From positions 1-64,000 of the forward strand of contig NC_017073.1 of the NCBI RefSeq assembly GCF_000284095.1: 64,000 bases of DNA, written 5' to 3'. The notes below the pieces were generated by a model. The model was not told the DNA's origin. It searched no databases and worked only from the letters and a program-made list of their open reading frames with translations. A program made the translations under genes and the position numbers. This DNA is from Selenomonas ruminantium subsp. lactilytica TAM6421 (GTDB taxonomy: Bacteria; Bacillota; Negativicutes; Selenomonadales; Selenomonadaceae). Numbering within the stretch: position 1 is the stretch's first letter; each line of letters begins with the position of its first letter. Of the stretch, positions 1-64,000 are shown one piece after another.

Positions 1-762
1 ATGATTACAGTAGTTATCAGCAATAAGAAGGGCGGCGTTGGCAAAACAACCACGGCATATAACCTTGCAGCCGGATTAAGAAAAAGAGGTAAGTCCGTCC
101 TGGCTATTGATCTTGATCCACAGTGTTCCCTCACGAAGTTCTGCGGAGTAAACAAAAATGGCCCTACGTCCTTCGGCGTTATTACCAAAGAAGTAAACAT
201 CAATTCTGCGATTCTTAAACTGGAATTCTTTGACCTTATCCCTGGCAGCCCTCTACTGAACAGTGCTGACCAAAACTTACCAGAGTCCGTCAATAAACTT
301 ATGCGAATTCGTGAAGCACTCTCTGAACTGGCCACAGATTATGACTACTGCATCATGGACAATGCCCCGGCTCTCGGCGTGGTCACTGTCAACGCATACA
401 TGGCCACGGATTATGTGGTAATCCCCGCAGAGGCCAACGAACTTTCCACAGACGGTATCGCCAATGTATTTGAATCCGTACTTGATGTTCGGAAATATGT
501 AAATCCCAATATTCAAATTGCTGGTATCCTGCTCACGAGATTCAAGCCCAATACTGTACTGAACAGAGAATATACCGATATATTCAATGAATTGGCCAAA
601 GGCATGGGAACCAAAGTGTTTAAAACGGCAATCCGTGAAAACGTTAATCTCGCAGAACTGCCATCTATCCATGTGCCTATCTTCGACTATAAGCCGAATT
701 CCACCGGAGCCGAAGATTATAATAAGTTCATCGATGAATTTATCAAAGGAGTAGAAAAATAA
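1..762 (+). CDS. parA: ParA-type partition ATPase
   Basis: Deviant Walker-type ATPase of the ParA/MinD family (253 aa), which drives segregation of low-copy replicons by forming dynamic nucleoid-bound patches. The deviant Walker A motif KKGGVGKTT lies at residues 9-17, a Walker A' IDLDPQ at about 37-42 and a Walker B-like CIMDNAP near 117. There is no N-terminal HTH, so this is a small (type Ib-like) ParA that usually works with a small RHH centromere-binding protein, and such a gene follows directly with a TAATG overlap. The ATG is the first base of the window, so the promoter is not visible. Family assignment is certain. A role in phage-plasmid maintenance is inferred from the neighbouring RHH gene and the dispersed octad arrays. 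Confidence 0.96.
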   Translation: MITVVISNKKGGVGKTTTAYNLAAGLRKRGKSVLAIDLDPQCSLTKFCGVNKNGPTSFGVITKEVNINSAILKLEFFDLIPGSPLLNSADQNLPESVNKLMRIREALSELATDYDYCIMDNAPALGVVTVNAYMATDYVVIPAEANELSTDGIANVFESVLDVRKYVNPNIQIAGILLTRFKPNTVLNREYTDIFNELAKGMGTKVFKTAIRENVNLAELPSIHVPIFDYKPNSTGAEDYNKFIDEFIKGVEK

Positions 763-1753: not shown

Positions 1754-4700
1754 ATGCGGTCACAAGTTGCGCATCGATGATAATGCCTTTGTTGCTGCGG
1801 ATAAATTCATAAGTCAATCCTTTGGCCACTTTGATTCCCCGCTGCCAACCGCGATATCTATCATAGTATTTATCTTTGTTCCATGCCGATGCAAATACAA
1901 TGCCATCGAATTCACCGTATGGCGTATCGAATATCAGCTTGGCCATAGTTTTTCCTCGCTTATCCTGGAACTCATAGACGCTCTTGGCCACCCCCGTAAG
2001 CACCTTTGGAAGTGACGAGAAGGAAAAGGACAACACGGAAATTTCACCGGCAATCTTATCATACTTCTTTGCTGCGGACTCCTTGAAATCCACATCAGCC
2101 AACTTTGCCTGCCACTGGTCAATCATGCGTTGTGCCTTGGCCCGGCCCTTATCATCTATGGCCATGTCATATTGGTCCTGGTAATACTCAATGCGTTCCT
2201 CACAATGAGCCTTGCGCTGCAAGATTTCCTTGGTGGATTGCAGATTGGCCAGCATCCAGCCTCGGTCTTTCCCCAGGTAATCCAGTGCCCCGGCCTTGAT
2301 AAGCCCCTCGGTAATTAACTTATTATTGGCTCCGGCCACCGTATGCCAATCATTGCTCTGGACCAGCGTAAGGTTCGCCCCTACGCCTTTGATATAACAT
2401 AAGCCGACACGGATCGCATCGCCTTCCACGGCCCATTTACGGTTGCCCTTGGATAAATCCGGAGGAAGCAGCTTGATGCCCATACGCTTACATTCTTCGA
2501 TATACGGCAAGAGTTTCTTGTGGTCCGTCCGGGAATTAAGCAAAGCGCACATGTATTGGACCGGGAAATGCGTTTTGAGAAACGCGGTCTTATATGAGAG
2601 TTTAGCATAGGATACCGCGTGGCTGCGGTTGAATACATACCGGCCAGCGGCTTCAATCTGCGCTGCCACCGCCGCTGCTACCTCATGTGAATAACCGTTG
2701 GCCTCACATGCGGCAATGAAATCAGCCACGGCAGCCTTGATTTTCGTGAGCTCTTTTCGCCCAATGACTTTACGGAGGGCATCAGCTTGACCAAGGTCGT
2801 ACCCGGCCATCTTCATGGAGATAAGCATAATCTGTTCTTGGTACACCAGAACGCCATATGTTTTCCCTGCGATTTCCTTCATGGCCTCGCAAGGATATTC
2901 CACGGTAATCTTGCCGTTCTTAGCATCGACATATTGTTGAAGCATACCAGAGTCAATCGGCCCCGGACGATACAAGGCAACCAGCACGGCCAGGTCATCA
3001 AAGCGATTCGGCTTCAATTCCTGGGCAACTTTCTGCATCCCAGGGGACTCCATTTGGAATATACCCGTAGTATGGCCACCGGCGTATACCTCGTATGTAG
3101 CCTTGTCGTTCATGGGGATAGATTCAAGGGAAAGCGGAATTTTGATTGCGGAAAGGCACTCGTCGATAATATCCAACGTGCGCAGGCCCAAGATGTCCAA
3201 CTTCAAGAGGCCCATGGCTTCCAGTGTGTGATATTCAAAGGCGGCCACACGCACATACTCGCGCTTACCAGTGGACGTATCTGTGGAAGTGCAGCCTTCT
3301 ACCGGACAATATTTTTCTACGGCATCCGGAGTAACCAGGATTGCCGATGCGTGAACCCCCATCTTATCAATGCGACCAGCGAAATGCTGCGACACATCAA
3401 GGAGACGTTCACGTTCTTCCTGGCTGAAAGCACTGTTTATCGTGAGGATTTCGTCGAGGGATTCTTGCAGGTCCTTAGTTACCACGAGCACCCTTTCCCT
3501 GGTCCATCGCATACCAGTGTCCTGCTTGTCCCTTTTACGACGGTCAACCTCTGCGCGTTCTTCCTCGGTCAATGACAGATATTCTTCTTTCTCCAATGCC
3601 TGCTGCGCCCGAAGAACCGCCTGTTTACCAACATCGGGTTTGTCGGGATTTTTGGTATAGCCATACGTCGTAACCTTGTAGACTGTACCGTAATGTTCCC
3701 GGATATAATCAATGATTTTCCCTCGATTATCCGTGGATACGTCTGTATCGATATCCGCCGGGCTTTGTCTCTGTGGATTACAAAAGCGGAAAAATGCGGT
3801 ATCGTATTTGATACTATCGACTTTATGAAAGCCCATGAGGTAACCAATGAGGCACCCGGCAGCAGAACCACGGCCTTCGCCAACGGGGATATTATTCTTT
3901 ACGCACCAGTTTACCAGGTCCCAGATGATAAGCAGGTAATTGAGATAGTTGGCTTTTTTGAGGTCAACCATTTCTTTTTCAAAGCGTTCCCCGTACTCCT
4001 TGTACTTGCCTTTAGGAACCTTGGCCCGCCAATTCTCTCGGCAGATTTCCCGGATAACTTCTTCGGCATCGCGCTCTGTGTACGTCGGATAGTGCATACC
4101 GCCGAATTCAATGGTTACATTGCAGCGCTCGGCAATGGCGGAGGTATTCGCAATGGCTTCCTCTTTCACATCGTCCGGTATCCAGAGCGTTTCCCGGATT
4201 TCCTGCTCGGACCAGAGATAGTTTTCGTTATCATGGTATCCATTGCCATGAATTTGCAGCCACAAGAAATGATAGGGCTCGTCCTCGGCCTTGGCATAAT
4301 GAGCATCCGTAGTGACCACCAGAGGGACGTTGTGCTTCCTGGCCAGACCAATGACCTTATCGTTGTATTCCCATTGCCGGTCAATGTTCAATGGCTGGAT
4401 TTCAGCGTAGAACCTGTCCCCAAAGATTTCCTTGAACTTTACAAACCAATCCTCGCCGGTATCCGTATTGACGATGGAAGCCATGCACGCGGACAGACAA
4501 ATTACCCCCCCACTATGCTTTCGCAGGTCTGATTCGTCGATACGCGGTTTGTAGAACATGTGGTCCTCGCGGTAAGCGATGGAGTCCAGTTCTTTGAGGT
4601 TCCTGTACCCTTCCTCGTTCATAGCCAAGAGAACCAAATGGTGCGTGAAGGAACGGTCACGGATGCTTACGTCTGGGCAAAAGTAGAACTCGCAGCCGAT

Positions 4701-4883
4701 GATAGGCTTGATATCCTGGGCCACACATTCCCGGTAAAATTCTACGATACCACGCATAGTCCCATGATCTGTGAGGGCCACCGCAGTCTGGCCAAGTTCC
4801 TTCACCCGGCCAACAAGTTCTTTCATAGTCTGATACCCGTCCATGATTGAAAAATCCGTGTGGTTATGGAGCGAAATATACAT
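1752..4883 (-). CDS. dnaE: DNA polymerase III alpha subunit, DnaE type
   Basis: C-family replicative polymerase of 1043 aa. The PHP domain starts at residue 1 (YISLHNHTDFSIMDG, ALTDHGT). The palm follows, with GEGRGSAAGCL (about 335-345), the catalytic acidic pair in ADIDTDVS (about 380) and a third Asp in LKLDILGLRTL. Fingers include GYDLGQADALRKVIGRKE, and an OB-fold-like segment lies at the C-terminus (about 960-1040). It is shorter than host DnaE (about 1150 aa) because the C-terminal clamp/tau-binding region is reduced. A strong SD (GGAGG) precedes the ATG. It lies downstream of a 71-aa gene and a consensus leftward promoter at 5162-5190. It probably makes phage/episome replication independent of host DnaE. 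DnaE- rather than PolC-type is clear from the absence of an exonuclease insertion. Confidence 0.96.
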   Translation of the reverse strand: MYISLHNHTDFSIMDGYQTMKELVGRVKELGQTAVALTDHGTMRGIVEFYRECVAQDIKPIIGCEFYFCPDVSIRDRSFTHHLVLLAMNEEGYRNLKELDSIAYREDHMFYKPRIDESDLRKHSGGVICLSACMASIVNTDTGEDWFVKFKEIFGDRFYAEIQPLNIDRQWEYNDKVIGLARKHNVPLVVTTDAHYAKAEDEPYHFLWLQIHGNGYHDNENYLWSEQEIRETLWIPDDVKEEAIANTSAIAERCNVTIEFGGMHYPTYTERDAEEVIREICRENWRAKVPKGKYKEYGERFEKEMVDLKKANYLNYLLIIWDLVNWCVKNNIPVGEGRGSAAGCLIGYLMGFHKVDSIKYDTAFFRFCNPQRQSPADIDTDVSTDNRGKIIDYIREHYGTVYKVTTYGYTKNPDKPDVGKQAVLRAQQALEKEEYLSLTEEERAEVDRRKRDKQDTGMRWTRERVLVVTKDLQESLDEILTINSAFSQEERERLLDVSQHFAGRIDKMGVHASAILVTPDAVEKYCPVEGCTSTDTSTGKREYVRVAAFEYHTLEAMGLLKLDILGLRTLDIIDECLSAIKIPLSLESIPMNDKATYEVYAGGHTTGIFQMESPGMQKVAQELKPNRFDDLAVLVALYRPGPIDSGMLQQYVDAKNGKITVEYPCEAMKEIAGKTYGVLVYQEQIMLISMKMAGYDLGQADALRKVIGRKELTKIKAAVADFIAACEANGYSHEVAAAVAAQIEAAGRYVFNRSHAVSYAKLSYKTAFLKTHFPVQYMCALLNSRTDHKKLLPYIEECKRMGIKLLPPDLSKGNRKWAVEGDAIRVGLCYIKGVGANLTLVQSNDWHTVAGANNKLITEGLIKAGALDYLGKDRGWMLANLQSTKEILQRKAHCEERIEYYQDQYDMAIDDKGRAKAQRMIDQWQAKLADVDFKESAAKKYDKIAGEISVLSFSFSSLPKVLTGVAKSVYEFQDKRGKTMAKLIFDTPYGEFDGIVFASAWNKDKYYDRYRGWQRGIKVAKGLTYEFIRSNKGIIIDAQLVTA

Positions 4884-4899
4884 ATTGAATTACCTCCGT

Positions 4900-5115
4900 T
4901 TATGCTTCAAGGTCTAATGTATAATCCGCGACAGTAACTTTGACTCTTTCATCAGGAGTGTCGCCACCGGTCAAATTATCTTCCATGGTTTCCTTTAATA
5001 TCCCAGGTAATGTTTCATCCTCTTTTGCCCTGACAAAACCCTCGATAATTTCCTTGTCAGCCTCGTTATCAAAATGCTCATTGATTTCAACTTCGTACTT
5101 GATGCTTAACTTCAT
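4900..5115 (-). CDS. Small acidic protein upstream of dnaE
   Basis: 71 aa, acidic, predicted alpha/beta, with no recognised domain. The ATG is preceded by GAGGT. It is the first gene after the promoter at 5162-5190 and is co-transcribed with the polymerase 16 bp downstream. Function unknown; the position suggests an early or replication-linked role. Confidence 0.7.
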   Translation of the reverse strand: MKLSIKYEVEINEHFDNEADKEIIEGFVRAKEDETLPGILKETMEDNLTGGDTPDERVKVTVADYTLDLEA

Positions 5116-5651: not shown

Positions 5652-5689
5652 TTTTAAGGGGTTTTCCTCTGTAACACTCTAGGAGCACT

Positions 5690-5745
5690 TACACCGTTAT
5701 AATGGTATAACGCTATACAATTACACCATTACGCCATTATAACGC
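5690..5745. repeat. Octad array B (candidate centromere/operator)
   Basis: Seven in-phase octads: TACACCGT, TATAATGG, TATAACGC, TATACAAT, TACACCAT, TACGCCAT, TATAACGC. It lies between two leftward genes with no ORF across it. Confidence 0.8.
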
Positions 5746-7460: not shown

Positions 7461-8033
7461 TTAAAGTAACGCTGCTGCCAAGCCTACTCCGGCCCCGGCA
7501 AGGAAAGACTGAAATTCCCTCTTGTGTCGCTTATGTTTTTCTTTTTTCATATTCTCGGCATGAGTCTTATTTAATGCTTCGGTATTCTCTTTGACCGCAG
7601 CCTGTACCTCCCTGTTAACAATAGGAGTTACATCAAGTACGGCTTCGGATTTCTGCTCTACCTGTAGTTTTCCCTGGTCAAACTTTTGCTTCTCCGTGGT
7701 CAGACCATTGAGTTCCGTTTTTTCGCCATTGTAAGATACCGCGATGGCTGGTGCAGGACTCTCAATCTGCACATCGGCATCCGCAGGAGAATCCTTTTCT
7801 ACATACTTAATCACGGTATCCCCTTTGACTTCCACGGGAATCTGCACTGGAACAGGCTTCTCCACTTCCACAGTCTGTACTTCGGTCTTGGTAACTACAT
7901 TGGCTCCAAAGTGTTTGCAGGCGAACCAACCACCAGCGAACAATGCCATGGCCAGCGCAGCAACACCGATATACTTCGCATGACTTTTGATCCACCGAAG
8001 TACGCCAAAGAAAATCTTACTTACTTTTGCCAT
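7461..8033 (-). CDS. Spanin-like membrane protein of the lysis cassette
   Basis: 190 aa. One N-terminal transmembrane helix (about 21-40) is followed by a long periplasmic-type Pro/Val/Glu-rich stalk (VEVEKPVPVQIPVEVKG), a charged helical segment and a short hydrophobic C-terminus (GAGVGLAAALL). It lies 6 bp after the endolysin as the last lysis gene, with GGAG at 13 nt from ATG. In a host with an outer membrane, this position and topology fit an i-spanin or unimolecular spanin. The cysteine at the end of the TM region lacks a good lipobox. Function is inferred from context. Confidence 0.6.
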   Translation of the reverse strand: MAKVSKIFFGVLRWIKSHAKYIGVAALAMALFAGGWFACKHFGANVVTKTEVQTVEVEKPVPVQIPVEVKGDTVIKYVEKDSPADADVQIESPAPAIAVSYNGEKTELNGLTTEKQKFDQGKLQVEQKSEAVLDVTPIVNREVQAAVKENTEALNKTHAENMKKEKHKRHKREFQSFLAGAGVGLAAALL

Positions 8034-9097: not shown

Positions 9098-12000
9098 TTA
9101 TGCGTAAGCAGGGATAACATATTCAGAGGAAGTCATCGCATCCACTTCGTCACTAGCGATAATACTAACATTGATGCTACATGCTTTATTCGCAGAAAGC
9201 CAATAGCAGAATCGATATTCCTTACCTGGCGTTATATCAACTACGACTCCATTGTTAATCCCCTTTACTTGGATTTCCTTTGTCCAATCCGAATCAATAA
9301 AGCAAAGATAACTACTATTGGTAACAAATGCACCGTTATTTGTCGTTGCCTTTATTAAAACCTTTTTACGTCCACTCGGTCCTTTAAACATACAATCATC
9401 ACCAGCGCTCCAATCCTCTACTTTGTCGCTATCAAAGGATATGGATTTCTGATAGATACTACCTTCAACCGTGGGTGTATCCGTAGATGGATTCGATGGA
9501 TTATCTGTAGACGGGTTATCCGTCGAAGGTTTGTCCGTGGACGGGTTATCTGTTGATGGATTGTCTGTCGAAGGTGTATCCGTGGAAGGATTATCAGTAG
9601 ACGGGTTATCCGTCGAAGGCTCGTCCGTGGACGGGCTATCTGTTGAAGGTGTAGGCGCACTCGGAAGCGTTATCTTCGTACCGCTAAGATTACATTCAAT
9701 CGTCGTGGGAAGAATATTTCCAGAATGACCAAAGTATCCATTTTTAAAAGTGCGGAATCTGTAGAAATCAACGTTATCAACCTTGATAATCCACTTTCCA
9801 CTAGCATTGCATTTCGTTGGAACATCAGTGCCGCCTTCCCAGAAAGCAAATACATCACCACCGGCTTTCATGTTTGTAGTAATGTTCTGCAAAACAATCT
9901 GTGATGGCATTTCCAGTTTTCCATCGAATACACATTTATAAGAATTATCACCAACGTAAACAATATCCCCTAAGTTATACGACGTGTTAGCCTTCCATTC
10001 TGTTCCTTGCTTAGACGAAGAAATCCATTCCCAGATTATATCACCATCAACGCAACGAGCATTACTATTTACAGGAATTCGGCCACTCGTCGTACCGTCC
10101 TGGTCCACCAATTTGTATACTCGTTCTACTCCGTCATTACCTTGGGAAATAACATAACTATCCTTTTCCCACCAAGTTTTAGGGAACCAGTCTTTGCCAA
10201 TGAAACCAAGTTTTGCCGTTCCCCAATCGAAGCTGCCATGCCAAGCCGTGTCAATCGGAGGCTTATCAGAAAGAATACCTTCTTTGAGGACTTTGTAAAG
10301 ACGATGATCCGCATAGATAATATCGTTCTTAGCCACTTCCATGCTCGGAGAAAAAGTCTTTGTAACGAACTTTTCTTTGGTATCAACGTATTCCCAATAG
10401 CAGGCATCAAGGCATTGCGGATATGTGTCAACACCTTCAATAACTTTGCCGGACGTATGTACCGGGCGATAACCATTGGAATGACCAGCAGAAATACATT
10501 CCCAACAAGTCAACGGCTTCCAGGAAGATTCACTGGTATAGCAGCAATCACCGACGGAATAATCTTTGTTTGCCTGCCACTCGTTCCATTCGACATATTT
10601 TACCGTCGCACTACCAAGAGAAAACTCTTTACCACTAAGGTCACTGGGTTTATTATCCTCACTAATCGTCGGAATCTTACCGCCCTTAGTTACGAAAAAG
10701 ATATTCGTATTATAGAAGGAGGTCAAGCCACTAGCATCAACGGAGCGATCAAACGTTCTAATGAACTGTCCACGGGATACACTTCCATCACCGGTATAAG
10801 CCTCTGTCCAGTCAATGCCCCGACCAAGGAGTTTCCAGCGTAATGTTCCCTTATCATCATTGCCGGTATCTTTGCACTGACCAACAACTGTCGTAGGAGC
10901 CTGCCCAGAGGTCTTGCAATATCTTTTCCCTGCAACCATAAAGTAAACCAGATATGTATCCGGTTCATAACTATGGAAATTGCAATCTCTAATCGTGATT
11001 TCCGGGAACTTATGCGTATCCAGCGTGCTCACGGCTTCTTTGTTAAAGTCGATTTTGCAAACATCGAATTCTTTCCCGCCTGGTTTCTTCAACCAAGCAT
11101 CACAATTCTCAATGACAACCCGGCCCTCAAAAATTCGCCCATACGTCGTATTAAACTCAAGGATATGTGCATTAGGATAACTATCGTTAGGCAATTCGTT
11201 GACATAGAAATTGCTATTAGTAATCTGACAAATACCACGGCCCTCACCAATCTGAATTGCATGATTAAAGAGGTTACAGTGGTCGATATACAAATTTTGG
11301 AAATAATTATGAATATCAAGACGGTTTGCATTGACTCGCTCAATATGAATATCCTTGACGCAGTTCATTGCCGTAGCGCCCCAATATCCTTGCATTGAAA
11401 CATCGTGAATGTGGAGGTCAAGACAATTCGTTGCACGAATCATGTAGCCGGAAGTACCATTGGAGCTACCCTGCATTTTACCGGCAGCATTGAAACCAAC
11501 GATATCAGAGATTTCTGTATTATAGCAACCCCAGACATAAATCATCGTATTCTTAAATACTGTGTTGTGCATTTGATTACTGTCTGGATAGAAATTAAAT
11601 CCACGGATATGAGCGTTATGAGTCTTGCACCAGAGCACGGAGCAATACTTATTCGCGCTGGTAGCCAATTTTACATTACAGCCCACGAATTCATAGTGCG
11701 TCGATGGAAGCATATTGTAAGAAATTGTGAATTTACTATTTACAGTCTGCGTAGATGCTGCATGGCCTTCATAGCTTGACAGAGAGGATTTGATTTCCAG
11801 GCCACCAGCGTTATTCCAATCGTATGTAATTGGATTAGCCAGCACGCCATCTGTCGTATGCAAGAGTAATTCATATCGTGGCTCTGAATAAAGATAACCG
11901 GAGTCATCGCGGACCGCATACGGTTCCTCTTGTAGAAAAATCAGAGCATTTTGTTCCAAGTGGGACTCTTTGCCTTCTGTCCCAATAACAAAGTTATCCT

Positions 12001-30426: not shown

Positions 30427-30455
30427 AATATATCACTTCGCGCCGTAAAAGTCAA
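30427..30455 (-). promoter_or_regulatory. Leftward promoter of antitoxin RNA
   Basis: Minus strand TTGACT, 17 bp, TATATT. It lies 15 bp from octad array C. Confidence 0.8.
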
Positions 30456-30469
30456 TAATTTCATAATTT

Positions 30470-30549
30470 AACAATGGTATAATTGTATAACTGTGTACCA
30501 TTACGCCATTACACTGCTATACAATTACACCATTACAATGGTGCAATAT
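30470..30549. repeat. Octad array C (candidate centromere/operator)
   Basis: Ten in-phase octads: AACAATGG, TATAATTG, TATAACTG, TGTACCAT, TACGCCAT, TACACTGC, TATACAAT, TACACCAT, TACAATGG, TGCAATAT. This is the longest of the five arrays, lying between the toxin-antitoxin locus and the major tail gene. Confidence 0.8.
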
Positions 30550-39931: not shown

Positions 39932-40573
39932 TTACAAATTACTCGGCGCTATCTTCCGCAGCGACTCAATCAGCATTGGATTCTCACGGAACGCCTTCAT
40001 AATTTCTTCATAAGATTCATTGTCTAAACGTACTCGAAGAATATCGTTGATGATATTCATTGCTTTTTCCACGGTCTTATAGCAGTACACTTTCTCCTGG
40101 ATCGCTCCGATCTCGGAGGAAAGCGTTTGTTGCCGCAGCGTCATTTTGTCGAGCATATCAATGACCTGCTTCAAATCTGAAACCTCTACATCACCATTAC
40201 CCACTCTCCGGTCCAGTTCATCGAGCTCAACCGAGATAATGTCAACCGCGTTGTTTACGAGATTCAGCGCCTTGACCTTGGTTCCATAGACGTTTACCAC
40301 CTGTTCATCGGTGGGCGCGGTCATGTCACCGCCAAGGCCATTGTCCCTGCACCACCGAGCAATTGAGTTATGGGAAATCTTGTAGCCGTTGGGAATCAAG
40401 TTCCCATCGTTGATTTCCTTCGTGATGTCACGGTAACTCTTGCCCTTTAGTCGCTTATCGCGAACCAGTTCACACAGACCGAACTGTTCTACCAGGGAAC
40501 CCATGGCCCCGTTGGTATGCAGCCGGTCCGGGGCTTTGTTTCCCGGTGGTGGCGCAGGATGATTCCTTGCCAT
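39932..40573 (-). CDS. terS: Terminase small subunit
   Basis: 213 aa from MARNHPAPPPGNKAPD; GGAG lies 8 nt upstream, while the GTG three codons earlier is too close. An N-terminal HTH region (KGKSYRDITKEINDGN ... ISHNSIARWCRDNGL, about 45-85) is followed by a long helical oligomerisation region. It recognises the packaging site. It starts only about 30 bp after the terminator of the large non-coding transcript, leaving no room for a separate promoter. Confidence 0.85.
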   Translation of the reverse strand: MARNHPAPPPGNKAPDRLHTNGAMGSLVEQFGLCELVRDKRLKGKSYRDITKEINDGNLIPNGYKISHNSIARWCRDNGLGGDMTAPTDEQVVNVYGTKVKALNLVNNAVDIISVELDELDRRVGNGDVEVSDLKQVIDMLDKMTLRQQTLSSEIGAIQEKVYCYKTVEKAMNIINDILRVRLDNESYEEIMKAFRENPMLIESLRKIAPSNL

Positions 40574-40601
40574 ACCAAACACTCCTTATTTTGTTTGTAT
40601 T

Positions 40602-40632
40602 AAAAAAGGAGCACCAGCCGCAGCTATGCTCC
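40602..40632 (-). terminator. Terminator of the large ncRNA, immediately before terS
   Basis: GGAGCA / TGCTCC stem (with inner pairs) and T6 on the minus strand. Read-through would transcribe terS and the structural genes. Confidence 0.8.
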
Positions 40633-40665
40633 CCGGCACCTCCCCGCAGGTACTATGCCTATTCT

Positions 40666-40721
40666 TATACATTTACGCCATTACACCGTTATAACTGTAT
40701 ACCTTTACAATGGTATAATGT
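40666..40721. repeat. Octad array D (candidate centromere/operator)
   Basis: Seven in-phase octads: TATACATT, TACGCCAT, TACACCGT, TATAACTG, TATACCTT, TACAATGG, TATAATGT. It lies between the tRNA-like element and the terminator. Confidence 0.8.
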
Positions 40722-40735
40722 CGTATATTTTCATG

Positions 40736-40805
40736 TGGCAGTCAAAGGAGTCGAACCTTTACCTCTGCTGGAATCGCAGTGTTCCTACCGTTAAACTATC
40801 CCGCC
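40736..40805 (-). tRNA. tRNA-like element at 3' end of the large ncRNA
   Basis: 70 nt. Acceptor GGCGGGA / GACTGCC pairs except for a tandem G-A/A-G step at its base; D arm GTTT/GAAC with AACGGTAG loop; anticodon stem CTGC/GCAG with loop GATTCCA; T arm AAAGG TTCGACT CCTTT. Position 33 is A if the anticodon is TTC (Glu), so the decoding identity is doubtful (TCC/Gly is the alternative by loop shift). CCA is not encoded. It could be a working phage tRNA, a decayed one, or a structural mimic. Confidence 0.6.
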
Positions 40806-41537
40806 ATAAAAGGGGCCTGCGCCCCATTCCCGTTTAGGCCACGGGCAAGACCTCTGCAATCAAACCTACAACTCATTGCAGCCCTTAGTTGTCGTATAAG
40901 GTTTTTAGACCACGAGCAGAGGAACATCGAACATACCAGCTACTAGTGCGAACACCTATCTGTAATGCTCTATGAACCCTTGTTCTCTTGTGGCAAACTA
41001 GGTACGGTAGCTACACTTCTTTTTTAAGAAACCTATTGACTTTCCTGGCTCCCAGGTTATACTTTCTTGATTTCCAGGAAACGGCTTCGGGCAGACTATC
41101 CCCTGCAAAGGAGATAGATTAGACTGTCCGTAGATACTTTCCGTCATTCCGAGGTATCCGTATCCGTGGTGCTCCTGCCAACCAATGAAATCATCGGTCA
41201 GCCATAGCCTATCAGTCAATTACGCCCCAGACTGTCCCAGGTTTCCCCGGCAAGACTATGAACCCTTCCCACCACCGTTATCGTGGCAGTCAAGCGATTA
41301 ACCCTCCGCGCCCTATTTTTAACCATGGCTTTCGCTTTAGGCTTAACGAGGTCTTGCAGCGCTTTTCAACCCCTTTGGTAACTCCCCAATAGCACCGAAC
41401 AGACCAGGGAGGCCCCGCATATTCTCTGCATCAGCTATGCGACACTGGCAATTTATATACCGCAGGCAGCGGATAGGAACCAGGCAGCGAAATAACGTAT
41501 GCCACCGGGAACCCCTTCGGCTCACACCGACAAATAT

Positions 41538-41566
41538 ATTGTACTCTTGTTAATCTATATTGTCAA
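41538..41566 (-). promoter_or_regulatory. Leftward promoter of large ncRNA / late operon
   Basis: Minus strand TTGACA, 17 bp, TACAAT. It is strikingly similar over 34 bp to the dnaE-operon promoter at 5190, sharing TTGACAAT, TTAAC, AGAGTA and AATATATT in register. Confidence 0.82.
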
Positions 41567-41704: not shown

Positions 41705-41780
41705 CTTCAAACCACTGGATTCAATGATATACTATGTTACCCCCCTACCCCCCGTACATATATAATATGAAAATCGACAC

Positions 41781-41810
41781 TTTTCACAACCCTATTTTGA
41801 AAAAAAGTTT
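41781..41810 (+). repeat. 30-bp repeat, copy 2
   Basis: 27 of 30 bases identical to 20121-20150, starting TTTTCACAACCCTATTTTGA. Confidence 0.55.
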
Positions 41811-42051
41811 AAAAATTTTTTCTTGGGAGCTCCGGAGGGCCTTCGGCGGGGCTTTGGTATTTCCAGAAGCACCCAAGTGATGCTCTGGTATTCTATGTAT
41901 ATACCTATGGAGAAATATGGAGAAAATTTTTCTCTGGTTGGCCTTTAGATCCACAAATGCTCTCTGGTCAGATTCTTTGCACCCCTGGTATCGCCTTCGC
42001 GGGCCTTAGTATGCCTGGTCCTTTATGCTTTTTGTCTGGTCAGCTATGGTT

Positions 42052-43049: not shown

Positions 43050-43607
43050 ATGAAAAAAACATATTTTGTATGGCGTGATGATGAAGGAAAAATTTTTGAC
43101 AAGGGCTTTTCAATCGAAGCAAGCGCAAAAGATGACGTTGCAACCATGGAGGCCGTAGCAAAGTATTTTGAAGCCCTCTATGATGAAAATGTAACCTATA
43201 TTGACGGTGTGATCCGTGTTCATTGCGGTGCTGATATCCGCGGGATTGACTTGCGCGTGTTTAAAGCTGAATTCAATGAAAACTATAAAGCAGCAAAGAA
43301 CCATGTAGCCGAATATAAAGAAGAATACACCGAACCGGAACCGGCTACCGACGTTGAACCAACCACGGAACCGGAAAAGGTGGAACCGGCCAAAAAGGTT
43401 CGCCGTCGTAATCGCCAGATCATAAAAGCAATGGCAAAATGCTACGGTAATAAACATGCAAAATTGCAGCTTTTTGGCAAAGGTAAACTCTCAACACATA
43501 AAAATTATCGTGGTTATTGTCGTAGTTATACCGCCTATAAAGATTATAAAAAAGGCGGATACTTACCAAAAACATTGGTAACAAAATATTTTCCTAGTGT
43601 AGCATAG
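43050..43607 (+). CDS. Early protein 1, unknown
   Basis: 185 aa. The N-terminal domain (about 1-90) begins MKKTYFVWRDDEGKIFDKG. An acidic Pro/Thr/Glu linker (EPEPATDVEPTTEPEKVEP) follows, and then a strongly basic C-terminal domain (KKVRRRNRQ ... YKDYKKGGYLPK), probably nucleic-acid-binding. GAGAGG SD. First gene of the long rightward operon. Not recognised. Confidence 0.75.
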   Translation: MKKTYFVWRDDEGKIFDKGFSIEASAKDDVATMEAVAKYFEALYDENVTYIDGVIRVHCGADIRGIDLRVFKAEFNENYKAAKNHVAEYKEEYTEPEPATDVEPTTEPEKVEPAKKVRRRNRQIIKAMAKCYGNKHAKLQLFGKGKLSTHKNYRGYCRSYTAYKDYKKGGYLPKTLVTKYFPSVA

Positions 43608-52252: not shown

Positions 52253-52304
52253 GTGACTTTTTGAAAAAATAATGCTTGCAGCGGTATTTCCTCTATGTTA
52301 TAAT
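52253..52304 (+). promoter_or_regulatory. Promoter of recombinase operon with conserved upstream box
   Basis: TTGCAG (52276-52281), 17 bp, TATAAT (52299-52304). It has the same box as at 42841 directly upstream. Confidence 0.85.
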
Positions 52305-52326
52305 GGAGGAAAAGGAGGAAGGAAAA

Positions 52327-53136
52327 ATGATGGATTACACAGAATTCCTAGAAGAAGTACGAAAAACGCGCCGGGAATCAACCTGGAAAAGCTATTGCAT
52401 GGCCTTGGAAAAGTTTCCGGAAGGAACCGAAGAAGAAATCATTGATTACATTGATAAGTCACCGCATCAGGGCAGCACTAAGAAGGCCAATTTGCGTATC
52501 CTGCGTTTGGCCCTGGATTACAACGGGGCTTTAACCAAAGGAATCAAGCGCATTATCAAGTCATACCGTCCGGATGAATCCTTGCAGGAATGTCCCACGG
52601 ATAAGCAGGTTGAAAAGATCTGGGACCATCTTAAATCCTTCCGCGAAAAGGCAATGTTCTCCCTCATGGCTTATATGGGCTTTCGTGTTGGCGAAGTCCG
52701 GAACCTGAATCTCAATGACATTACGGAAAATGGCATGATTATCATCCGTAAATCCAAAGGTCATCGCCCGGACATTATGCCGATGGTCCACAAGCGGGTA
52801 TATGAATCACTTAGATCCTACCTGCATGAGCGTCGAAACACAGATAACCAGGCATTATTTACCGGTCCCCATGGCAGGTTATCCCTGGGATATATTAAGA
52901 ATATGTTTATCAATGAATTCAAGAGTAATGACCTCCCACAATTCCACTGTCATTCCCTCCGGAGATACTTCGCAAACTCCATGTATAACAATGGCGTATC
53001 CTTGTTAGATATGCAGGACAACATGAGACATAAATCCCCGGAAACCACGAAACGCTATTTGAACCTTGGTCAGCAGAATCGTATCGACGCGATGCGGAAA
53101 ACCTGGGGCGACAATGTTTCAAAAATGTTTGCATAA
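52327..53136 (+). CDS. Tyrosine recombinase
   Basis: 269 aa from MMDYTEFLEEVRKTRRES (GGAGG SD). An N-terminal core-binding SAM-like domain (1-95) is followed by the catalytic domain with all usual residues: Arg in MGFRVGEVRNL, Lys in IRKSKGH, His-x-x-Arg in CHSLRRYF, His in MRHKSPE and the nucleophile Tyr in TTKRYLNLG. Small like XerC/D-type enzymes. In a genome with parA it may resolve multimers or integrate/excise the phage; no att site was recognised beside it. Confidence 0.93.
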   Translation: MMDYTEFLEEVRKTRRESTWKSYCMALEKFPEGTEEEIIDYIDKSPHQGSTKKANLRILRLALDYNGALTKGIKRIIKSYRPDESLQECPTDKQVEKIWDHLKSFREKAMFSLMAYMGFRVGEVRNLNLNDITENGMIIIRKSKGHRPDIMPMVHKRVYESLRSYLHERRNTDNQALFTGPHGRLSLGYIKNMFINEFKSNDLPQFHCHSLRRYFANSMYNNGVSLLDMQDNMRHKSPETTKRYLNLGQQNRIDAMRKTWGDNVSKMFA

Positions 53137-54286: not shown

Positions 54287-54294
54287 TGCTCGTT

Positions 54295-54350
54295 TACGCC
54301 ATTATACATGTATACCATTGTACCATTACACCATTATACAGGTGTAAATG
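54295..54350. repeat. Octad array E (candidate centromere/operator)
   Basis: Seven in-phase octads: TACGCCAT, TATACATG, TATACCAT, TGTACCAT, TACACCAT, TATACAGG, TGTAAATG. Confidence 0.8.
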
Positions 54351-59160: not shown

Positions 59161-61392
59161 TCATTCACAAGCATTGTACCCGCAATTATCGCAGGTCCAG
59201 CACTTTGCCTCTGGTCTAAGCGTGTGCTTATGGCACTCCGGACACTCTCGCAGGCCATCGTCCTCCGGCGGTTCCTCGGTGGGCAATTCCGCTGGTGCAC
59301 TGGTTAACTCTCGTTTCATGGATAATTCCATGGCATCGGCAATAGCATTGCTGCAAGACAAGGAAACATCTTTGCCCTGCCGACGAAGGACCTGGCAGGC
59401 CGGGCATTTATTGGCCCTAAGTTCATCAATGATTTTCGACACCTTCACGCCGGAACGCAGGGCCAGGGAAATCAACCGGGTAATCGTGTTGATATTGCTC
59501 TTGCACCCACCGGACGGATTCGTGAATACCTCGAATACATGGCCATCATCGGTCTTATTCGTTGTGACATACATGGAACTTACGCAAGAGGTCTGTTCCC
59601 GTACCGTGGAACCATTGACAACCTTGACTTCTCTACGACTTTCCTTTGGCTCTATGGTGTCATAGTCCGGAGTTTCGGTTTCCTCCGGCTTATCGCTGAC
59701 ACCCAGGATATTTCCTCGCTTGCAGCCATCGCGGAACACCGTAATCCCTTTGAGGCCCTGTTTCCAGGCTGCCATATAGATTTCCTCGATTTCTTCCACC
59801 GTGGCCGAATTCGGCAGGTTTACCGTGGAGGAAATAGCATTATCAACGTAATCCTGTAAGATCCCCTGGAACGCCACACGCTCCATCGGCGGTACTTCAT
59901 GGGACTCAATGAGGAAGGGGAATTTCTTCTTGGCTTCCTCCGGGGAAATCCCTTCTAAGCCATGGAATTTCAGCAGGTCAGCAACGCCACGGGCATATAC
60001 CGTGAAGGTCTTGCCACTGTCCTCCATGCTATGAGAAGTCCTCTGATAAGCAATCTTATACATCGGCTCGATGCCACCAGTAAAACCACCAGCGAACAGA
60101 GAAATCGTGCCGGTAGGAGCAATGGAAAGCAGCGTGCCGTTACGCAGGCCATATTTCTTAATCAAATCGTGAGCTTCTGGATATGCCTTGATAACCGGTG
60201 ATGCCATGGTTTTCTCCAAGTCAAACTTGCGGAACGCACCTTTCTTGGCAGCCAGAGAAGCAGAAGTCAGCAATGCCTGTTCCATGATGATATCCATGAT
60301 ATCCGAAGCCACCGCGCGAGATTCCTCGGAGCCATAACGAATTCCCATAGCTACAAAGGCATCTGCCAGGCCGAACACACCCAGGCCAATGCTGCGCCAG
60401 TCAGCGATGGTTTCCCGGTTTAAATCCAAAGGCTGCATATCATAACCATAATCCAGGATTTCATCAAGCATACGAACTGCGGTATCCGTAATCATGCGAA
60501 GATGTGTTTTGTCAATCGTTGCATGATCCGTGAATTTATCCTTGATGGCGTTGTAAACATTGATAGAGCCAAGGTTACAAGAGTTGCCGCCGTTCCCAAA
60601 GAATTCCGCGCATGGATTCGATACGTCAATCTTGTACTCCAGATAACCAGAGAGCAAATTGAAATTCCTTACTCGGTCAATGAAGATTGCCCCAGGATCG
60701 CCCCAATCCCATTGCGTTTCACAGAACTCATGGAAGAAGGAACGCGCATCAATGGTTTTCTCAATGTGGCCCGTTTCCGGACTATCATAGACCAACTGGA
60801 ACGGCTGATTCTTTTCCACGGCTTCCATAAATTCATTGGTGAACTTGATGGAAATATTCATAGAAGATAACTTAGAGCCGTCCTGCTTGATTCGCAGGAA
60901 TTCTTCGATGTCCGGGTGGTCACACCGCAGGCCAACCATAAGCGCTGCTCTGCGACCATTCTGGCCAATGGTTCCGCCGGTCACATCAAAGATATTCAGG
61001 AAGGACACGGCCCCGGTGGAGGTCATCGCACTGTTATTCACCGGCGCTCCTTTTGGGCGCAGGTTATCAATGGCCAACCCGCAGCCACCACCATAGGAGC
61101 TAATGCGGGCAATCTTCTTGGCCGTATCAAAGATGGATTCGATGTTATCCTTCGGTGTGGGCAGCACATAACAATTACTCATGCTAACCTTACGCTTACC
61201 CTTGTAACCAGCACCGAATAACGTGCGGCCAGCCGGGAGAAAATCTGCGTTTTCCAGGACCTTCTTGGCTTTCGGCTTTAATTCATCGCTAAAGATAGAT
61301 GCCACGCGGCCAATGAACTGCTCCGGTTTCTCGCCTTCATGCAGATACTTTCGTTCCATGATGCCCATGGAAACTTCATTGTCATACCACAT
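59161..61392 (-). CDS. nrdJ: Class II (adenosylcobalamin-dependent) ribonucleotide reductase
   Basis: 743 aa from MWYDNEVSMGIMERKYL, overlapping the upstream stop (TAATG). Conserved parts: FLPAGRTLFGAG, SMSNCYVLPTPKDN (first redox Cys), SYGGGCGLAIDNLRPKGAP, SNPCAE (thiyl-radical Cys) and GNSCNLGSINV. A C-terminal region with CKSN, CPACQVLRRQG and a terminal zinc ribbon (CPECHKH ... CWTCDNCG) follows. It reduces ribonucleotides to deoxyribonucleotides with B12. Two CxxC pairs suit thioredoxin-type reduction. No B12 gene is present, so cofactor must come from the host. Confidence 0.95.
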   Translation of the reverse strand: MWYDNEVSMGIMERKYLHEGEKPEQFIGRVASIFSDELKPKAKKVLENADFLPAGRTLFGAGYKGKRKVSMSNCYVLPTPKDNIESIFDTAKKIARISSYGGGCGLAIDNLRPKGAPVNNSAMTSTGAVSFLNIFDVTGGTIGQNGRRAALMVGLRCDHPDIEEFLRIKQDGSKLSSMNISIKFTNEFMEAVEKNQPFQLVYDSPETGHIEKTIDARSFFHEFCETQWDWGDPGAIFIDRVRNFNLLSGYLEYKIDVSNPCAEFFGNGGNSCNLGSINVYNAIKDKFTDHATIDKTHLRMITDTAVRMLDEILDYGYDMQPLDLNRETIADWRSIGLGVFGLADAFVAMGIRYGSEESRAVASDIMDIIMEQALLTSASLAAKKGAFRKFDLEKTMASPVIKAYPEAHDLIKKYGLRNGTLLSIAPTGTISLFAGGFTGGIEPMYKIAYQRTSHSMEDSGKTFTVYARGVADLLKFHGLEGISPEEAKKKFPFLIESHEVPPMERVAFQGILQDYVDNAISSTVNLPNSATVEEIEEIYMAAWKQGLKGITVFRDGCKRGNILGVSDKPEETETPDYDTIEPKESRREVKVVNGSTVREQTSCVSSMYVTTNKTDDGHVFEVFTNPSGGCKSNINTITRLISLALRSGVKVSKIIDELRANKCPACQVLRRQGKDVSLSCSNAIADAMELSMKRELTSAPAELPTEEPPEDDGLRECPECHKHTLRPEAKCWTCDNCGYNACE

Positions 61393-63314: not shown

Positions 63315-63520
63315 TCAGTAACCTCGTCCAGCATATTAGCTATGGCCTCGGCCACTTCAATTTCATCATCCGTAGCATCATCACATTCAACGGCAAAAAG
63401 GAACTCTTTAAACAACTTAGCTTCCTCATATGACATACGAATGGAAACATCCTCGTTCTTACTTTCGGGGCCTATGCCCTTAATATAGCGCTGAATCCCC
63501 GCTGCTCGTACTGTAATCAT
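63311..63520 (-). CDS. Small acidic protein, unknown
   Basis: 69 aa; ATGA overlap with the gene upstream. Begins MITVRAAGIQRYIKGIG; acidic second half. Not recognised. Confidence 0.6.
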   Translation of the reverse strand: MITVRAAGIQRYIKGIGPESKNEDVSIRMSYEEAKLFKEFLFAVECDDATDDEIEVAEAIANMLDEVTD

Positions 63521-64000
63521 GCAAATGCACCCTCGCCGGTAAAGTCATCGTCCGGCACATCGGTTTCCGGAGAGATACGATAGTCAGCATCGTTCTTAAC
63601 CAGGGAATACCAATAGAGGTACTGCTTTGCCTTATCGTGGTCAGACTCGGCCTGGCCCTTGTGCATCGCTCTCATGGTATACTTGACGAAATTACCAAGC
63701 AGGAAGCCTTTGAACTGCTCCGGAGTAAAGAACGTCTGCATTACTTCAAGAGGCTGCATAGCGGACGCCTTATAATGCTCTTGGTCACTTGCCAGCCCCG
63801 TGTTTTCGCTCGGCTCAATCAAAGTGACATGCTTCGGGCTAAAACAGTAGCCGGATGCTCCTTCAAGGTTAACGAAGCTAATTCCAGCATCAGATACCGT
63901 CATTTCTTCTCCACAATACCGTCTCATGCTCGTTGCGAAACAAGGAACTGTATCAATATCGCCATCATCGTCAGTGCCAAATTCTTCTTTCATGGAATCC
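63517..64000 (-). CDS. DUF3310 protein, 5' end cut by window edge
   Basis: The C-terminal half has the DUF3310 signature (HYKASAMQPLEVMQTFFTPE, GNFVKYTMRAMHKGQ, KAKQYLYWYS). DUF3310 proteins (SaV-like) are small phage proteins related to nucleotide kinases by annotation only. The N-terminal part (MRRYCGEEMTV ... YCFSPKHVTLIEP) is a KOW-like domain often fused to DUF3310 and appears truncated. An ATG exists at 63993 but the true start probably lies beyond the window. Confidence 0.8.
   Translation of the reverse strand, partial: DSMKEEFGTDDDGDIDTVPCFATSMRRYCGEEMTVSDAGISFVNLEGASGYCFSPKHVTLIEPSENTGLASDQEHYKASAMQPLEVMQTFFTPEQFKGFLLGNFVKYTMRAMHKGQAESDHDKAKQYLYWYSLVKNDADYRISPETDVPDDDFTGEGAFA

Follow-up and report, generated by a model that had tools for sequence, protein, structure and literature searches.

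GOLLD and ROOL are the described systems closest to the locus analysed here. Both form nanocages, GOLLD as a 14-mer and ROOL as a homo-octamer; only a small number of such giant, ornate phage RNA classes has been described, and what they do is an open question. The passages of the nanocage report on which we draw (PMC12286853) describe GOLLD as a phage RNA near tRNA islands, in many cases longer than 800 nt, with a conserved 3' region and a looser 5' region, and ROOL as a large phage RNA, likewise near tRNA islands, whose 5' and 3' regions are intertwined. Both are presented there as RNA-only nanocages with a variable linker inside, which in GOLLD sometimes holds tRNAs, and the authors add that whether cages are common among large RNAs remains to be determined (PMC12286853). 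A separate family with the same layout, carried on an apparently complete circular phage-plasmid, would be an independent comparison for these two, and the features common to unrelated families (a phage, tRNAs, a variable linker and a conserved 3' region) would then be a pointer to what matters.

We analysed a stretch of 64,000 bases (the window), with which a contig of 73,380 bases begins; the contig belongs to the 3.63-Mb genome of a host that is probably a member of the Selenomonadaceae, and it is also recorded as IMGVR_UViG_2513237213_000004. Its first bases are the ATG of a gene for a ParA-type ATPase (window 1-762), and at its end stands a ribosome-site-like sequence for parA, with no overlap between the two contig ends, from which we infer a complete circle cut at parA; it is probably a complete circular phage-plasmid. 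The phage further encodes a ribonucleotide reductase large subunit (59161-61392, minus strand), a phage-integrase-family protein (52303-53136, plus strand) and a DUF3310 protein (63517-63993, minus strand). The element under study lies between plus-strand genes, which begin at 43050, and minus-strand late genes, and stands directly before a putative terS (terminase small subunit; 39932-40582, minus strand), named from its place before the large subunit. In Pfam, the putative TerS matches only Recombinase, at 20.8 bits (below the cut-off of 21.1), and its PHROG match is of unknown function; the genes that follow it encode a BRO-N/HNH protein, TerL and the portal. A first-pass annotation of this DNA had proposed, upstream of terS, a structured noncoding RNA of large size that contains a tRNA-like element, and this proposal gained support from covariation in a conserved core and from an Rfam tRNA match.

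The predicted RNA occupies 40602-41531 on the minus strand, ~930 nt including the tRNA-like element and the terminator, and was delimited from its promoter, its terminator, the lack of a coding signature and a two-sequence fold with a related 80-kb phage contig, L029. At its 5' end stands a sigma-70-type promoter, TTGACA-17-TACAAT (41538-41566, minus strand), with 11 of 12 consensus matches, and transcription of the minus strand would be expected to start near 41531. Reading L029 from its sequence and the alignment, we found TTGACA-18-TATAAT at 3938-3967, in register and directly 5' of the homologous RNA. At the 3' end lies an intrinsic terminator (40602-40632, minus strand), in which, by sequence, GGAGCA (40632-40627) pairs with TGCTCC (40613-40608) and is followed by T6 (40607-40602); the outer stem also forms in the two-sequence fold, and the terminator was absent from the list of a simple scan, probably because of its 13-nt interior. 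The promoter and terminator that the annotation had placed around ~927 nt without a credible ORF were thus both found, on the minus strand between 41566 and 40602.

The longest ORFs on the RNA strand encode 73 amino acids (TTG start, 40998-41219) and 60 amino acids (GTG start, 41343-41525), and an overlapping ORF of 82 amino acids (GTG start, 40546-40794) lies on the opposite strand. For translation of the segment, which the annotation had set as the counter-case to an RNA, no coding signature was found: we compared with L029 the 18 stretches, on both strands, that run for 30 codons or more without a stop, and no frame stood out as preferentially conserved. The similarity extends over many frames at once, as expected from DNA identity, and several alignments pass through stops. 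A 36-codon stretch starting MVKNRARRV is ATG-open in both the window and L029, with 58% identity; it was rejected as coding, its substitutions falling 7, 10 and 12 times on codon positions 1, 2 and 3 (counted by eye), with no coding signature.

The annotation had also described an elaborate fold, and here too the sequence agreed with it, the single-sequence fold of 40600-41540 reaching -328.8 kcal/mol versus -305.5 kcal/mol for shuffled sequences (z -3.28), with 0 of 20 shuffles as stable. By inspection, the sequence also shows the internal repeats AAGGGTTCATAG and TTGACTGCCAC, each in two copies. Another repeat, inside the transcript at 40665-40720 (minus strand), has BLASTN matches elsewhere on the contig and belongs to a short repeat family of the GGTATAATGG type, which is scattered in both orientations over the phage and its relatives; further copies lie at 1274-1313, 5689-5743, 30455-30542 and 54293-54347 of the window and at 73245-73309 of the contig. 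Upstream of the promoter, we noted a promoter-like block (41730-41812, minus strand) that reads GGGTTGYnAAAA and later TATTATATNTG, with TTGTGA-16-TATTAT in the window; it recurs in contigs L007, L029, L033 and L031, less clearly in L008, and in L036 and L024 with its last part only. It is followed by a G-rich motif, GGGGGGTAGGGGGG (41740-41753), and similar motifs were seen by eye in L007, L029, L033, L031 and L008.

The phages related to this one were gathered by TerS and TerL searches, and duplicates were not recounted (L006, L009 and L026 equal the window's contig, L015 and L028 equal L007, L085 equals L031 and L086 equals L029). Besides the window, six related contigs (L007, L029, L033, L031, L032 and L008, of which L031 and L032 are close to each other) carry a conserved core of the RNA upstream of the putative terS; L027 and L030 start downstream of the site and are therefore uninformative. 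L029 holds the whole element, its 5' half at 3983-4430 (74% identity) and its 3' half at 4860-5072 (72%). L007 holds the 3' domain only (83%), followed by a tRNA-like element, a 158-aa ORF and then a terminator; the ORF bears an NPPY motif and appears methyltransferase-like by eye, with no Pfam family. In L033 the core follows a tRNA of unassigned type and precedes a tRNA-Tyr, and a DNA methylase gene lies upstream; L031 and L032 show in succession a tRNA-Tyr, a tRNA-Met, the core and a hairpin with a T-run, and L008 shows a tRNA-Met remnant, the core and a tRNA-like element.

The 3' domain of the RNA (40805-41021, minus strand) is 83% identical to L007 4940-5154 and 72% to L029 4860-5072, and it ends in the conserved core, 109 nt at 40805-40913 (minus strand) that were defined from seven sequences and two models, R1 and R2. 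The core consists of hairpin a (4-5 bp around ACGA), hairpin b (6-7 bp), hairpin c (4 bp, around UGGCCUAAA in the window) and hairpin d (5 bp; the loop is of GNRA type in four of the seven sequences), after which comes a UUAUG spacer (UUUUAAUG in L033). R1 was trained on the window, L007, L029 and L033 and searched over 51 sources. Among sequences outside its training, it matched L031 (52.3 bits), L032 (50.4 bits) and L008 (21.7 bits) at the syntenic place; these three cores had been spotted by eye before the search, and the L008 score is no better than that of a chance-like hit in L033 (21.5 bits). R2, trained on six sequences with L008 left out, gave L008 49.2 bits. Other model hits were taken as chance, namely a second one in L033 (12.9 bits) and one each in L071 and L029 with R1, and one in L035 with R2.

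When the seven cores were aligned by hand, 141 of 147 cells were paired and 13 of the 21 pairs had changed on both sides. Restricted to the six rows whose helices differ, the alignment was shuffled 5000 times: no shuffle had as many paired cells, 4 had as many two-sided pairs and 955 as many pair types. The model-fitted alignment of the seven sequences, which leans toward structure, was 97.1% paired, and 13 of its 21 pairs had changed on both sides, values that 0 of 500 shuffles attained (slid controls had 0-4 two-sided pairs); its covariation score was 0.644, compared to 0.220 in shuffled and 0.025-0.186 in slid alignments, while 81 of the 500 shuffles had as many pair types. An unfitted alignment of four core rows was 88.0% paired and had 7 two-sided pairs; 0 of 500 shuffles attained either value, and 94 attained its number of pair types. 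The 3' domain alone, compared in two sequences, gave a weak signal, with a z of -1.7 and 6 two-sided pairs where the shuffles had 7 at most.

The 5' domain (41064-41531, minus strand) is defined by its similarity to L029, in which 3983-4430 is 74% identical to 41523-41064. Between 41530 and 41077 the comparison with L029 yielded a z of -5.4 and 21 two-sided pairs, versus a mean of 8.2 and a maximum of 15 in 60 shuffles, and two TerL coding controls of equal length gave z values of -0.9 and -1.0, with 5 two-sided pairs each against shuffle means of 4.8 and 5.9. Among the relatives, L029 is the only one in which this domain can be recognised from its sequence, and its covariation is therefore that of two sequences; a profile of it found no match below an E-value of 1 in L031, L033 and L008, the L007 record has no match to it at an E-value of 0.1 or less, and in L007 and L033 the core is present without a recognisable 5' domain. 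Folded over its full length with L029 (the L029 linker left out), the element reached -183.9 kcal/mol versus -127.9 kcal/mol (sd 9.0) in 20 column shuffles, which are the fair comparison since RNAalifold rewards two-sided pairs, and 32 of its 196 pairs had changed on both sides, versus a shuffle mean of 19 and maximum of 26. The covariation analysis over homologous phages that the annotation had called for thus yielded covariation in both the core and the 5' domain. We conclude that the element, as predicted from these comparisons, is a real structured RNA.

The same data bear on the proposal that the locus is not an RNA at all, but a DNA site (pac, cos or a replication element) beside terS. 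Packaging sites are often near terS, and a G-rich motif and repeats lie nearby; yet base pairs covary in hairpins with conserved loops, and a promoter and a terminator stand in register, and we consider this proposal very improbable.

A further feature in the annotation was a perfect 10-bp helix across the element. The helix exists, its 5' arm GCAAGACCTC at 41348-41357 (minus strand) being the complement of its 3' arm GAGGTCTTGC at 40845-40854 (minus strand), 1-2 bases from where the annotation had placed them; taken alone it does not exceed chance, as simple arithmetic predicts ~0.4 perfect 10-bp matches for a sequence of 931 nt. In L029 nine of the pairs are kept, one as G-U, with no two-sided changes. 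L007 keeps GAGGTCTTGC without the 5' arm, indicating that the long helix is dispensable in some relatives.

Between the 5' and 3' domains lies a variable linker (41022-41063, minus strand), which in the window is 42 nt long and holds no tRNA. In L029 it spans ~430 nt and holds two small ORFs (hydrophobic by eye; no Pfam family), and in L031 and L032 a tRNA-Tyr and a tRNA-Met stand between a well-folding upstream region and the core. The 365 nt before these tRNAs, compared between L031 and L032, gave a z of -4.3 and 4 two-sided pairs, where shuffles had 1.2 on average and 4 at most; by profile, this region is not recognisably homologous to the 5' domain. The 3' domain itself opens with a self-complementary 8-mer, GUAGCUAC in the window, L007, L029 and L033 and GCUAUAGC in L031, L032 and L008. 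The two differ at six of eight positions with the palindrome kept, a swap that, viewed post hoc, would fit a self-kissing contact between RNA copies.

The arrangement before terS raises the main rival to a free-standing RNA, namely a cis-acting late-operon leader: the RNA would form the 5' part of the transcript that carries terS, terL and portal, and its fold would control passage of the terminator before terS; examples of antitermination leaders are the lambda 6S and put RNAs. It is the main rival because the terminator stands directly before terS: its T-run ends ~30 nt 5' of the terS start, shortly before the terS ribosome site. The core, moreover, stands directly before terS and is co-oriented with it in 7 of 7 contigs, a terminator-like hairpin was seen by eye between core and terS in L007, L029, L033 and L031 (in L007 and L029 similar to that of the window, with an apical UGCG and a T-run), and several relatives have a promoter-like block further upstream. 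What a leader accounts for less readily is the near-consensus promoter at the 5' end of the RNA itself, kept in L029, as well as the tRNA genes or ORFs inside linkers, the ORF that L007 places between core and terminator, and L008, in which a clear terminator was not seen by eye. On this balance we regard a leader as unlikely, yet as a rival to be taken seriously.

Directly 3' of hairpin d lies the tRNA-like element (40736-40805, minus strand), which matches RF00005 at 36.3 bits (cut-off 29) and is the sole Rfam match at gathering thresholds in the whole window. ARAGORN at default settings called no tRNA in the window, and at a lowered threshold it called the element a tRNA-Glu (ttc). In a single fold, the element forms five acceptor pairs and D-, anticodon- and T-stems; it shares the T-stem and a 7-nt T-loop with true tRNAs and differs from them in two acceptor-stem mismatches and in a 7-nt anticodon loop, GAUUCCA, without U33, and CCA is not encoded, so that it does not qualify as a functional tRNA by its loop or by ARAGORN's default call. 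The module that follows the core varies among the relatives: it is a tRNA-Tyr in L033, in L007 and L029 its anticodon arm is reduced to a stem of 5 bp and a loop of 3 nt, a 17-bp hairpin serves as anticodon arm in L008, and L031 and L032 have only a 7-bp hairpin with the T-run instead. Single folds show the T-stem in the window and L008, a shifted T-stem in L007 and none in L029; in the two-sequence fold of the window and L029 the acceptor, D- and T-stems pair in common. RNase P and RNase Z recognise the acceptor and T-arm, and the retention of these parts while the anticodon arm is lost favours a processing role for the module. A comparable order, a hairpin, a tRNA-like element and then a tRNA-Thr, was found in the more distant L023 (a Mitsuokella prophage, also present as L039) and L038, where the D and anticodon arms of the tRNA-like element are enlarged, its acceptor has 7 bp and its T-stem 5 bp; neither R1 nor R2 matched L023 (= L039) or L038.

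These degenerate tRNA-like elements, together with the tRNAs in several relatives and the tRNA-Met remnant before the L008 core, seen against L031, could also be read as a decaying tRNA array, in which the structure is left over from phage tRNA genes and their spacers. Such decay sits poorly with a core and a 5' domain that are not tRNA matches and with the compensatory change present, and we give it very little credence.

The annotation's candidate family assignment was not supported, since in the covariance-model search neither GOLLD (RF02032) nor ROOL (RF03087) matched the element up to an E-value of 10. At gathering thresholds (ROOL 99.1 bits, GOLLD 150 bits) both were absent from the window and nine related loci, and at E-values of 10 or less with permissive filters they were absent from the element and from L029, L033, L031 and L008. 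The ROOL model, of 574 positions, had a positive control, scoring 158.2 bits in one of 101 family genomes (G173); the GOLLD model matched in 0 of these 101 and 0 of 14 control genomes, so that the GOLLD negative stands without a positive control. The ROOL RNA of the control lies at 1630-2241 of L084, a 5.4-kb contig of another host-family genome. A 160-nt hit of the throat-1 RNA model, which has 334 positions, to the element scored 18.3 bits (cut-off 124.4) and was taken as chance.

In layout, nonetheless, the RNA resembles both. As in GOLLD, a large phage RNA combines a widely kept 3' part (the core, in seven contigs) with a 5' domain recognisable by sequence in two, and a variable linker carries tRNA-Tyr and tRNA-Met in L031 and L032, the window's own linker being short and without a tRNA; unlike GOLLD, the RNA has no covariance-model match here, the GOLLD model lacking a positive control. 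As in ROOL, the RNA is phage-borne, with phage genes around it, measures ~930 nt, has tRNAs at its site in relatives and contains a variable linker, and a ROOL occurs in the same host family; it differs from ROOL in having no model match and in standing before terS, followed by a tRNA-like element. From what the sequences reveal, it is GOLLD/ROOL-like in layout and is not a detectable member of either. A divergent GOLLD or ROOL RNA beyond the reach of the Rfam models would explain the size, the phage location, the tRNA neighbourhood, the conserved 3' and variable 5' parts and the tRNA linker in relatives; the absence of both models up to an E-value of 10 in the element and four relatives speaks against it, as does, for ROOL, the strong score of that model in a same-family genome, to whose copy (L084) blastn of the RNA gave only one 19-nt match at an E-value of 3.2. 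We therefore hold a divergent member of either family to be improbable.

Searches for further members returned few sequences. With strict filters, R1 matched in 1 of 189 family genomes and R2 in 1 of 189 order genomes, in each case the own genome only, and R2 in 1 of 380 class genomes, again the own genome, with none in the 379 others among the matches listed. The core was not detected by R1 in the more distant L034-L039 (TerL 58-68%), nor by R2 in L034, L035, L036 and L038. DNA-pattern scans of viral contigs gave, beyond the known contigs, only hits judged to be chance, some of them by blastn, another six by R2 and 42 further loci by nhmmer (one weak hit, E-value 0.37). Blastn of the RNA against 50,697 phage records and 72,556 plasmid records gave no match, and TerS relatives were found neither in phages and plasmids nor in genome contigs; 511 nt of L031 had matches in 8 phage records, all at tRNA genes. 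Literature searches found no published description of this RNA.

The reading we prefer, and hold tentatively, is that the element represents a new family of large phage-encoded structured RNAs, a free-standing scaffold RNA that acts in trans late in infection and whose 3' end is made by tRNA-type processing. The RNA would be produced in quantity from its own promoter, and the terminator would separate it from the terminase operon. With its halves tied by the long-range helix, it would fold into an independent scaffold that works like GOLLD and ROOL and acts in trans during lytic growth. The tRNA-like module would serve as a processing tag, cut on its 5' side by host RNase P, and the cut would leave a mature 3' end after the UUAUG spacer; the tRNA mimic thereby offers a direct and cheap test of 3'-end formation.

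A bolder proposal, which we regard as rather doubtful, is that the element adds an independent third class to the giant scaffold RNAs of phages, forming RNA-only homo-oligomers as GOLLD and ROOL do, with a linker that docks tRNAs or small genes and a 3' end made by host RNase P from a tRNA mimic; the palindrome swap at the start of the 3' domain, seen post hoc, would suit contacts between copies. If true, it would be a bacterial counterpart of the eukaryotic MALAT1/mascRNA, in which a tRNA-like element likewise lies directly 3' of a long noncoding RNA; the two differ in organism, sequence and structure, and processing in the present case is predicted.

The related contigs contained several additional features. 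In L031, a Hammerhead type II ribozyme was found at 2052-2127 on the minus strand (40 bits, cut-off 37). In the slot before terS, L038 (4761-5450) and L023 (6047-6273) share noncoding-looking blocks (85% identity over 110 nt and 81% over 85 nt), and in L038 a BRO-N gene lies between these conserved blocks. L024, which is of the phage type of L034, has an in-frame TAG at TerL residue 42 of the aligned reading (9374-9376) and a tRNA-Pyl gene between terS and terL (7518-7605); the terminase of this phage possibly contains pyrrolysine.
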